Part shown: one piece after another, positions 420 through 3,235 of the stretch | How positions within the stretch are numbered: the stretch's first letter is position 1 | Layout: the number at the start of each line of letters is the position of its first letter | Notes under the pieces: generated by a model | Seen by the model: the letters and a program-made list of their open reading frames with translations, nothing else | Databases searched by the model: none | What the model was told of the DNA's origin: nothing | DNA from: Posidoniimonas corsicana | GTDB lineage: Bacteria > Planctomycetota > Planctomycetia > Pirellulales > Lacipirellulaceae | DNA length: 64,000 nt | Direction of reading: 5' to 3' | Assembly (NCBI RefSeq): GCF_007859765.1 | Contig: NZ_SIHJ01000001.1 | Coordinates: 930,767-994,766, forward strand | Made by a program: the position numbers and the translations under genes

Positions 420-2174
420 GTGCCGACCATGCTGGGCGTTGAAGACGAACTACCGGGCGCCGCCACCGGCCCCGCCGCACCCATGCCGATCCCCTCGATC
501 CCCGAATCCGCCCCCTTTAGCCCCGAGCAGCGGGCCTGGCTGAACGGCTTCCTGGCCGCCTGGGCCGGCGTCGCCGAGCAATCGGGCGGCCGCCTGCCGT
601 CGGACCTCTCGGGCCTCAAGGAGGCCCCCGCCAACGGCGCCAGCGCGTCCAACGGCGCGCCGCCGAAGAAGTCGGCCGCCAAGCCGGCGCCCGCCCCGGC
701 CGAGCCGGCGCCCGCCGCCGTCGAGACCCTGGACGACGGCGACTACGCCTGGCACGACCCGAACCTCGACATCGAGGAGCGGATGAAGCTGGCCGAAGGG
801 CAGGGCGTGACCAAGAACCTGATGGCCGCCATGGCGCAGCTCGATTGCGGCGCCTGCGGCTACATGTGCGACACCTACGCGATGGCGATCGCTAGCGGCC
901 AGGAGAAGAGCACCGCGCTCTGCACGCCCGGCGGCAAAGAAACCGCCAAGATGCTCAAGAAGGTGATCAAGGACTCCGGCGGCATCAAGCCCGCCGCGGC
1001 CGCCCCCGCCGACAACAAGCCGCAGCAGGTGCAGGTCGCCGACGGGCCGATCCCCTACAGCCGGGCCAAGCCGTACCGCGCCCGCGTCAACACCCTGTAC
1101 AATCTCAACGGTGAGGGCTCGGCCAAGCACACCTGCCACGTCGAGCTCGACCTGGCCGGCAGCGACATCTCGTTCCGCGTGGGCGACTCGCTCGGAGTGT
1201 TCCCGACCAACTGCCCCGACCTCGTGGACGAGATCCTGTTCGCCCTCAAGGCCCACGGCACCGAGCACGTAACCGCGTGCGACGGCGTCGAGGCGCCGCT
1301 CCGCGAGGCGCTCACCGTCAAGAGCAACCTGAAGCACGTCGGCGAGGACCTGGTCCGGTTGATCGCGGCCAGCACCTCCGACTTCGACGAGAAGCAGCGG
1401 CTGCGGGACCTGGTCGACGGCGACGGCGACGAGCTCGACGACATGGACGTGCTCGACGTGCTCCGCCTGGCCCCCTCGGCGCGGATCTCCAAGGGCGCGT
1501 TCTCCCTCACGCTCGGCTCGCTGGCGCCGCGGCTCTACTCGATCGCCAGCTCGCTGCGGGCCCACCCGGACAGCGTCCACCTGACGATCGCGAAGGTCAC
1601 CACGATGCTGGCCGGCCGCGAGCGGAAGGGCGTGGCCTCCACCATGTTCACCGACCGCATCGACGTGGGCGACACCGTCCGCGTGTTCGTGCAGCCGTCG
1701 GCCGACTTCACGCTGCCCAGCAACTCCAACGCCCCGATGATCATGGTCGGGCCCGGCACCGGCATCGCGCCGTTCCGGGCGTTCCTGCAGGAACGCAAGG
1801 CGCTGAAGGCCCGCGGCAAGAACTGGCTGTTCTTCGGCGACCAGCACGAGGCGACCGACTTCCTGTACCGCGAAGAGCTGACCGAGATGCAGGAGCAGGG
1901 CCTGCTGACCAAGCTCAGCACCGCCTTCAGCCGCGACCAGGAAGAGAAGATCTACGTCCAGAACCGGATGAAGGAAGAGGGCGCCGAGCTCTACAACTGG
2001 CTCGAAGAAGGCGCCTGGTTCTTCGTCTGCGGCGACGCCAAGCGCATGGCCGGCGACGTTGACCGGGCGCTGCACGAGATTGTCGCCGAGCACGGCGGCA
2101 TGAGCCCCGAGGACGCCAAGAAGTACGTCACGAACCTCCGCAAGACGCACCGCTACGTCCGCGACGTGTACTAG
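420..2174 (+). CDS. Sulfite reductase flavoprotein (alpha)-like protein with an Fe-S domain
   Basis: This 584-residue protein should pass electrons from NADPH through FAD to a partner redox protein, probably a sulfite reductase hemoprotein, in the cytoplasm. Residues about 140-170 hold a four-cysteine cluster (CGACGYMC and a later C in ALCTPGG) typical of a 4Fe-4S domain. The CysJ-like half follows, with the FAD motif RLYSIASS near 371, the NADPH motif GPGTGIAPFRAFLQER near 443, and the C-terminal aromatic YVRDVY. The N-terminal FMN flavodoxin domain of classical CysJ is absent and the Fe-S domain takes its place, after an Ala/Pro-rich linker. A second ATG at 429 is an alternative start. The stop overlaps the convergent gene by 4 bases. 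The natural partner subunit is not in the window. Confidence 0.85.
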   Translation: MPTMLGVEDELPGAATGPAAPMPIPSIPESAPFSPEQRAWLNGFLAAWAGVAEQSGGRLPSDLSGLKEAPANGASASNGAPPKKSAAKPAPAPAEPAPAAVETLDDGDYAWHDPNLDIEERMKLAEGQGVTKNLMAAMAQLDCGACGYMCDTYAMAIASGQEKSTALCTPGGKETAKMLKKVIKDSGGIKPAAAAPADNKPQQVQVADGPIPYSRAKPYRARVNTLYNLNGEGSAKHTCHVELDLAGSDISFRVGDSLGVFPTNCPDLVDEILFALKAHGTEHVTACDGVEAPLREALTVKSNLKHVGEDLVRLIAASTSDFDEKQRLRDLVDGDGDELDDMDVLDVLRLAPSARISKGAFSLTLGSLAPRLYSIASSLRAHPDSVHLTIAKVTTMLAGRERKGVASTMFTDRIDVGDTVRVFVQPSADFTLPSNSNAPMIMVGPGTGIAPFRAFLQERKALKARGKNWLFFGDQHEATDFLYREELTEMQEQGLLTKLSTAFSRDQEEKIYVQNRMKEEGAELYNWLEEGAWFFVCGDAKRMAGDVDRALHEIVAEHGGMSPEDAKKYVTNLRKTHRYVRDVY

Positions 2175-3235
2175 TGGCCCGCGGCCGCCGGGTCTAAGGT
2201 CCCGGGGGCTACTGGCTCCAACGTCCCGGCTGATTGCTCCATTGGCCGGTCGCGGTGCTCGGTGTGGCACTGCTTGCAGTTCTTCTGCACCGCCGCAAAC
2301 GCCCGGGCCGCCGCCTCGCGTCGCTCGGCCGTGCGGGCGTCGAACAAGGCCCGCTCGAGCTGCATCGCGGCGTCCTCGCCCTGCTGCAGCAGCTGCTGGA
2401 AACCGGCGGGCTGCCGCCGGGTTTCTTCCAGCCGCTTCATCTCGGTGTAGTGCTCCCGCAGCAGCAACGCCTCGTGGTCGGGCGCCAGGTCCGGGTGGTT
2501 GGCGGGGGTGGCCCAACCGGCCTGCTCGATCGCCCTGAGGTGTTCGAGCGAGTGCTCCAGGTCGGTCATCGCCTTGACCATCTTGGGCGGCTCAACGGTC
2601 TCCGGGAACTTCGCGGCCACCGCGTCCAGCACCGCGTTGGTGAGGGTCTCGGCTCGTTCGGCCGACGCGTACAGACCGCGGTACGAGGCGCTGGTGCCGG
2701 CCGTCTTGAGGACGACCAACGCGTGCTCGGCCGGCAGGGTCCCGGCGCCGACGCAGGCCACGGTCGCCGCCGCCGGGCTGCGGTGCTTGCCGTGGTGGCA
2801 GTGGATGTAGATCGGCCCGGGCAGGTCCCGCACCGCCTTGGCGAGCTCCTTGGACCGCACCGCGGGAACCCCATCGTAGCCGTGCGGGAGGTGGACGTAG
2901 CGCAGTCCGTGGGCCCGGGCAGTCGCAAGATCCGGCTTGGCGCCGTCGACGCTGATCACCGTCTTCACGCCCAGCCGCTCCAACGACTCGAAGCCCTCAT
3001 CGCCAAGCGGCGACGCGCCCGAGATTACCTTGTCGGTTATCCAGTAGGCGTTCGGCAGCCCGGCGCGGTCGACCGGGCGCGGCGCCCAGTCGGAGTCAGC
3101 GGCGGCGGCTGGGTGAGCAACGACTAACCCGAGGACAAACCAGGCGAGCAGTCCTACACAACGCCGAAGCGGCGAACAATTGATCGGCAAAACGAGATTC
3201 CCTGCAATGATTTGGCGCTCTCCCCGCGAACCCAT
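2171..3235 (-). CDS. Exported dual-specificity/tyrosine phosphatase-like protein with a CxxCH heme motif
   Basis: This protein of about 354 residues has a hydrophobic signal segment (CVGLLAWFVLGLVVAHPAAA) and then a cysteine phosphatase fold. The HC-x5-R loop appears as HCHHGKHRS near residue 145, preceded by VKTVISVDGAKPD, as in DSP/KRED-type phosphatases. The C-terminal third is helical and ends with CKQCH near residue 321, a c-type heme attachment motif. Both activities would be outside the cytoplasm. The ATG at 3235 was chosen because the longer frame only adds a basic stretch; a start nearer the signal segment is possible. The substrate is unknown, and whether heme is really bound cannot be told from one motif. 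Confidence 0.75.
   Translation of the reverse strand: MGSRGERQIIAGNLVLPINCSPLRRCVGLLAWFVLGLVVAHPAAAADSDWAPRPVDRAGLPNAYWITDKVISGASPLGDEGFESLERLGVKTVISVDGAKPDLATARAHGLRYVHLPHGYDGVPAVRSKELAKAVRDLPGPIYIHCHHGKHRSPAAATVACVGAGTLPAEHALVVLKTAGTSASYRGLYASAERAETLTNAVLDAVAAKFPETVEPPKMVKAMTDLEHSLEHLRAIEQAGWATPANHPDLAPDHEALLLREHYTEMKRLEETRRQPAGFQQLLQQGEDAAMQLERALFDARTAERREAAARAFAAVQKNCKQCHTEHRDRPMEQSAGTLEPVAPGTLDPAAAGH

Follow-up and report, generated by a model that had tools for sequence, protein, structure and literature searches.

The window analyzed here, a stretch of 64,000 nucleotides from the planctomycete Posidoniimonas corsicana (contig NZ_SIHJ01000001.1, positions 930,767 to 994,766), carries on its minus strand a gene whose predicted exported product, judging by a structure model and by conservation among relatives, almost certainly joins a protein tyrosine phosphatase (PTP)-like domain to a class II cytochrome c-like domain. 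A first-pass annotation had noticed an HC-x5-R phosphatase loop near residue 145 and a CxxCH motif near residue 321 behind a signal peptide, and had read the product as a phosphatase domain and a heme-binding motif in one exported protein, which could link dephosphorylation in the periplasm to a redox state; the analysis supports this interpretation in part, namely for the joining of the two domains. Both motifs were found, the first as HCHHGKHRS at residues 145 to 153 (H145-C146-x5-R152), inside a modelled PTP/dual-specificity phosphatase (DSP) fold, and the second as CKQCH (C320-x2-C323-H324), behind a hydrophobic N-terminal run. An alternative TTG start would lengthen the protein to 377 amino acids. 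In the 6.8-Mb source genome, this gene was the sole full match, and one further partial match had an E value of 0.19. The positions of the gene and of the features of its product are collected in Table 1.

TABLE 1 Coordinates in the window of the fusion gene and of the predicted features of its product
Feature	Position	Strand	Basis
Coding sequence of the two-domain protein	2171..3235	-	354 amino acids from ATG at 3235; whole-length relatives found
Predicted N-terminal export signal, approximately residues 1-46	3098..3235	-	Hydrophobic run (approximately 27-40), then HPAAAA
PTP/DSP-fold domain, residues 47-206	2618..3097	-	Structure and profile matches to TpbA
Asp121, at the TpbA Asp105 position (numbering taken from the alignment)	2873..2875	-	D in 120/177
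Phosphate-binding loop (P-loop) HCHHGKHR, residues 145-152 (predicted nucleophile C146; H151, R152)	2780..2803	-	Conservation in 177 sequences
Class II cytochrome c-like four-helix domain, residues 216-332	2240..2590	-	Structure, profile, Pfam PF01322
Met223, proposed distal heme ligand	2567..2569	-	177/177; column of cytochrome c556 Met12
CKQCH, predicted heme c attachment motif, residues 320-324	2264..2278	-	Present in 173/173 proteins not truncated before the motif

An AlphaFold2 model based on an alignment (A1) of 86 of the 105 family sequences had a mean predicted local distance difference test score (pLDDT) of 88.6 and a predicted template modelling score (pTM) of 0.80, with ten-residue blocks scoring 93 to 98 from residue 51 to residue 330. 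The best structural match of the N-terminal domain was the Pseudomonas aeruginosa tyrosine phosphatase TpbA (4r0s; VIA-align Z of 16.0, 156 aligned residues, root mean square deviation of 3.1), with a Foldseek E value for the domain of 2.7e-7, and sequence profiles also matched TpbA (2m3v, E of 4.5e-9; 4r0s, E of 2.7e-8). DUSP23 (Z of 15.7) was tied with TpbA within the margin of the tool, followed by Siw14, SsoPTP, and the DUF442 protein 3gxh; the AtPFA-DSP1/Siw14 entries 6byf and 7mog scored 14.9 and 14.6, and the DUF442 entries 3gxh and 3gxg scored 14.6 and 14.4. In a viral fold library the top rows were phosphatases of the PTP/DSP kind, led by a SIW14-like phage protein.

The C-terminal domain was modelled as four helices (residues 218 to 238, 252 to 268, 277 to 298, and 303 to 328), the last of which holds CxxCH near its C-terminal end, and best matched 6r6o, the Kusta0087/Kusta0088 complex (106 aligned residues, root mean square deviation of 2.8), at a Z of 13.4, a range (about 13) that helical bundles can reach without kinship. 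Despite this caveat, kinship to class II cytochromes is independently supported by a sequence profile built from 19 of 33 divergent sequences (alignment A2), which matched cytochrome b562 entries (E of 1.5e-6), cytochrome c' (1.4e-5), and 6r6n (1.2e-3). Across 86 family members, searched in Pfam at E<=0.01 rather than at the curated cut-off, Cytochrom_C_2 was found in 66 and the DSP-PTPase family Tc-R-P in 70. Two results count against the overall reading: the window protein alone scored below the Pfam cut-offs (21.9 versus 26.5 bits for Cytochrom_C_2, PF01322; 16.3 versus 27 bits for PTP-NADK), and a prediction for the isolated cytochrome domain, made with no alignment, was poor (pLDDT of 49.8). 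Because the PF01322 score of the window protein falls short of the curated cut-off, we call the domain only class II cytochrome-like.

To what extent the two sites occur together was judged from a pooled set of 177 two-domain sequences, including the window protein (L001) and omitting nine loci that repeat others and one weak match (L002). Five of the 177 are still repeats, leaving 172 distinct sequences. One of the searches pooled (80 loci of 167 relatives) gives a biased test of the motifs, as these are contained in two of the six patterns it used; the nearest-genome sample and the phylum sample, the latter not searched by motif, are unbiased. Among the 59 genomes nearest to that of the window, its own included, 27 had a match, which was two-domain in 25 and PTP-only in 2. 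An even sample of 199 genomes across the phylum contained 110 with a match at E<=1e-5, and the two-domain form was present at 73 places in 72 genomes, the other matches covering mostly the PTP part only. Both motifs were present at 71 of these 73 places, and the other two (L175 and L203) are cut by contig ends. A class sample around genome G256 gave two of seven genomes, both already seen.

In the pooled set, Cx5R was kept in all 177 sequences and CxxCH in 173, and the four two-domain proteins without CxxCH (L081, L089, L175, and L203) are cut short by a contig end ahead of that motif. Thus, orthologs lacking CxxCH, which the first-pass annotation had named as the finding that would speak against it, were not seen among complete two-domain proteins. 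Repetition does not account for these counts, with both motifs present in 168 of the 172 distinct sequences (the other 4 being truncated) and in 102 of 103 clusters formed at 60% identity (the remaining one being a truncated sequence). Eight residues were invariant (C146, R152, H115, Y120, Y185, G187, L188, and M223) and three nearly so (H145 in 176, with Tyr in L026; H151 in 175; and D97 in 174). The mean pairwise identity over 3000 random pairs was 31% in the cytochrome domain versus 47% in the PTP part. As far as these sequences go, the pairing of the two sites is stable in every complete relative sampled, which suggests a putative envelope enzyme whose function is linked to redox chemistry.

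A crude export scan covered 100 of the 105 family sequences, 5 having been dropped for doubtful starts. It found a hydrophobic N-terminal segment in 91 and a lipobox-like motif in 36, and some relatives are probably lipid anchored; 9 had neither a strong hydrophobic segment nor a settled start. The source genome encodes a Cytochrom_C_asm protein (78.5 bits versus a family cut-off of 29.9), and covalent attachment of heme outside the cytoplasm is therefore possible. We consider it very probable that the predicted heme c site really binds heme.

The candidate for the distal side of the heme is M223, an invariant residue in a domain whose sequence otherwise varies. In a MAFFT alignment it falls on the column of cytochrome c556 Met12, which we take to be a heme ligand, and on a Leu of Rhodopseudomonas palustris cytochrome c'. 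The first aligned pair with 6r6o and 6r6n was residue 216 to 25 (217 to 26 with 6r6m), which would place M223 at chain A residue 32 if the alignment is gapless; titles of the Kusta0087/Kusta0088 structure entries name Cys32 mutants, the mutated subunit being assumed to be chain A, and this Cys32 is presumably a heme ligand. The registers do not all agree, and this counts against M223: in an alignment with cytochrome b562, Met7 of that protein fell at residue 226, three positions away from M223, and a forced global hhalign run placed R. palustris cytochrome c' in yet another register. The same forced run reproduced the MAFFT register for c556, although its confidence in helix 1 was close to nil; unforced hhalign aligned only the last helix. 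We lean toward M223 as the distal ligand of a putative six-coordinate Met/His electron-transfer heme; the chief competing reading is gas sensing.

On the phosphatase side, Asp121 aligns with TpbA Asp105, which we assume to be the general acid of that enzyme. Two features of the family speak against a conventional mechanism. The Asp121 column holds, besides its Asp residues, 15 Ser, 13 Asn, 11 Lys, 8 Arg, 3 His, and others, with Asp in only 34 of 71 sequences of the phylum sample alone, and position 153 is Ser in 96 and Gly in 79 of the 177. Because of this variability, standard tyrosine-phosphatase chemistry is not assured. Conserved instead of Asp121 is H151, the His just before the P-loop Arg, which occupies the same P-loop place as His155 of the plant enzyme AtPFA-DSP1. 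The AtPFA-DSP1 study (PMC9038691) gives a P-loop with Cys150, Lys151, Arg152, Lys154, His155, and Arg156, describes that enzyme as also being without the WPD acid, mentions that the general-acid Asp is absent from some true PTP members, and proposes His155 as a general base, mutation of which cut activity by 95 to 98%. Since the P-loop His is kept and the Asp is not, and given the precedent of AtPFA-DSP1, we infer a His-assisted phosphatase. That the PTP-fold domain hydrolyzes phosphoesters at all is probable.

Beyond the phylum, the fused form was found in 3 of 61 genomes of the phylum of L073 (an Abditibacteriales record) and in 1 of 145 genomes of that of L088 (Pedosphaera, Verrucomicrobiota), the seed genome being counted in each case. 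Family members also occur under records titled Leptolyngbya (L085), Chitinophaga (L086), and Kuenenia (L048); L085 is probably a misnamed bin, since the tree places it among Phycisphaerales. That tree was made by a quick method from 83 fused and 21 PTP-only sequences left after thinning at 66% identity, and 56 of its 101 inner branches were weakly supported. Holding the fused sequences as one clade was not rejected (approximately unbiased test, P = 0.876) and gave a log-likelihood 39.8 above that of the free quick tree; the free search had put a very long PTP-only sequence, L029, among the fused ones, and the constrained tree scored better. A single origin of the fusion is thus compatible with the tree, which does not prove it.

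Three PTP-only cousins that lack a heme motif (L208, L209, and L210/L219) are placed by the tree outside the group of fused proteins. In common with that group they have a loop ending in GxHR and the signature YxGL; D97 is also present in two of the three, L210 having Glu. L219 (genome G200) has HCHHGKHRGG and YKGLY, followed by what by eye looks to be a second, degenerate PTP-like repeat. GxDR in place of GxHR was carried by 21 of the 26 PTP-only sequences, among them L149 to L153, L155 to L157, L160 to L164, and L211 to L214; an Asp beside the P-loop Arg recalls, we believe, the myotubularins. Cytochrome domains of this kind were also seen apart from the PTP part. In genome G223, an open reading frame (ORF) directly downstream of the fused gene (L204, 1309 to 1992) encodes a cytochrome domain only, with CGGCH and, by eye, an export signal, and may be a duplicate or serve as a redox partner. 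In the genome of the window, L217 (1495 to 2433, minus strand; C1:3700655-3700798) encodes a protein, likewise exported by eye, that has a different N-terminal part and ends in a cytochrome c'-like domain with CSDCH; a similar protein is present in G024 (L030).

A pyruvate kinase gene lies about 650 bases upstream of the fusion gene on the same strand, and a CysJ-like reductase gene (420 to 2174, plus strand) is convergent with it, the 3' ends overlapping by four bases. The reductase has flavin adenine dinucleotide (FAD) and nicotinamide adenine dinucleotide (NAD) domains and a small iron-sulfur (FeS) domain (PF04060) at residues 140 to 168; a flavodoxin domain was not matched in Pfam. A comparison of neighboring ORFs of at least 90 codons at 109 loci, including the first 9300 bases of the window and with flanks of up to 6 kb that were often shorter, found no conserved operon partner and no neighbor family common to more than 10 loci, a result that lends no support to a link between heme and catalysis. 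The largest neighbor families, named by eye, were a kinase-like ORF (10 loci) and an ORF resembling DUF1501 proteins (9 loci), and an ORF cluster present at 61 loci is, to judge from where its representative lies, an antisense shadow of the fusion gene itself. The CysJ-like (sulfite-reductase) neighbor was set aside as a functional partner, being in none of the shared neighbor families listed. Because neither it nor pyruvate kinase is among those families, the fusion gene seems to stand alone.

The explanation that we favor, and hold to be evenly poised between right and wrong, is that of an exported PTP-fold phosphatase that carries its own c-type cytochrome and is coupled to redox state. Once Sec had exported the protein, heme would be attached to C320 and C323 by the cytochrome c synthesis system, with H324 below the iron and most likely M223 above it, giving a low-spin electron-transfer heme like that of cytochrome c556. 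In the periplasm, C146, held by R152, would attack the phosphorylated substrate, and H151 would do the proton work done elsewhere by the variable Asp, as proposed for AtPFA-DSP1. The heme would exchange electrons with the redox pool of the envelope, and phosphatase activity would then follow redox state, by way of the state of C146 or of contact between the domains. The step at which the state of the heme controls the phosphatase is tentative, leaning slightly toward doubt. In its broadest form, which we advance as a proposal that may well fail, the family would be a planctomycete-centred class in which covalent heme c directly gates a His-based PTP-fold phosphatase in the envelope, derived from one fusion and kept by every complete descendant sampled, so that dephosphorylation follows respiratory redox state or nitric oxide (NO).

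The heme might instead be the sensor of a gas. If it were five-coordinate or lost its Met, as in cytochrome c' or NaxLS, binding of NO or carbon monoxide (CO) could switch the phosphatase. The Pfam family concerned is that of cytochrome c', and the b562 register puts the distal residue at 226, which is hydrophobic (I/L/V/M) in 103 of 105 sequences, a trait that we associate with cytochrome c'. The invariance of M223, together with its place on the c556 Met12 column and on the Leu of R. palustris c', favors a six-coordinate heme, and we regard gas sensing as unlikely. A distinctly unlikely alternative is that the PTP-fold domain is no phosphatase and performs sulfur or thiol chemistry (persulfide or disulfide) at C146, passing electrons to the heme. 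It draws on the lack of a conserved general acid, on the presence of 3gxh and 3gxg among the structural neighbors, and on the greater immediacy with which an electron-carrying heme would fit thiol oxidation than phosphate hydrolysis; the DUF442 domain of Blh combines a PTP fold with sulfur transferase activity (PMC5823870). TpbA and DUSP23 outscore the DUF442 proteins, however, and the seven-residue Cx5R loop of the family differs from the six-residue CRTGTR given for a DUF442 sulfur transferase (PMC8533005).

It is quite improbable that the cytochrome is a passive passenger, serving simply as an electron carrier or as a module for folding or anchoring, with the two activities independent. The cytochrome-only ORF next to the fused gene in L204 indicates that the heme domain can stand alone, and PTP-only cousins such as L208 and L209 exist, but no complete fused protein among the 177 has lost either motif and a single fused clade was not rejected. 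Chance motifs or an artefact, for which one could cite the shortness of the motifs, a GC-rich genome, and the sub-threshold Pfam scores of the window protein, have a negligible probability and were ruled out by the folds, the positions of the motifs, and their conservation.

Where tyrosine phosphatases are known to be under redox control, it is mostly their catalytic cysteine that becomes oxidized. If the explanation by redox coupling is true, the built-in heme c would be a dedicated wire from electron flow to phosphorylation outside the cytoplasm, where protein phosphorylation is a little-known field. The family lends itself to a clean test: its two domains are modular, natural variants are numerous, and each domain has invariant residues that can be changed singly. 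The first-pass annotation knew of no described protein that joins a phosphatase and a heme motif, and our search agrees: among openly licensed papers, judged by titles and abstract openings, we found no published description of a PTP-cytochrome fusion. Both folds are known, and as far as we searched their junction is undescribed. A preprint on a c-type heme sensor domain concerns Cache domains and not phosphatases (PMC12889525).

Among known systems, TpbA (4r0s, 4r0t, and 2m3v) is closest by both profile and structure, being an exported PTP fold with an HCxHGxxR loop; we take its location to be the periplasm. Unlike the new family, it has no heme domain in its chain and has Asn in place of H151, and the equivalent of its Asp105 is an Asp in only some of the family. 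AtPFA-DSP1 and Siw14, atypical dual-specificity and inositol pyrophosphate phosphatases, resemble the family in their PTP fold, their K-H-R P-loop, and the absence of a dependable WPD-loop acid, whereas the family is exported, fused to a cytochrome, and has a different alpha5-alpha6 loop with the invariant YxGL. Lys186, Arg188, and Asp191, which the AtPFA-DSP1 study names (PMC9038691), would by counting from the Cys fall on Ser, Ser, and Gly at window protein residues 182, 184, and 187. Because the alpha5-alpha6 loop looks different, we do not claim membership of the PFA-DSP group. The DUF442/Blh sulfur transferases share a PTP fold with a catalytic Cys but have, in the tested enzyme, a Cx4R loop (PMC8533005), a difference in loop length on account of which we reject DUF442 membership; Blh itself is fused to a dioxygenase and not to a cytochrome (PMC5823870). 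On the heme side, the Kusta0087/Kusta0088 complex, which is named NaxLS and described as NO binding elsewhere (PMC11897245), offers a four-helix heme domain, likewise from a planctomycete (anammox), in separate small proteins without a phosphatase. Cytochromes c', c556, and b562 resemble the C-terminal domain by profile and by a heme motif close to the C terminus that is followed by an Arg, but they are stand-alone proteins, whereas here the predicted heme domain is joined to a PTP-like one.

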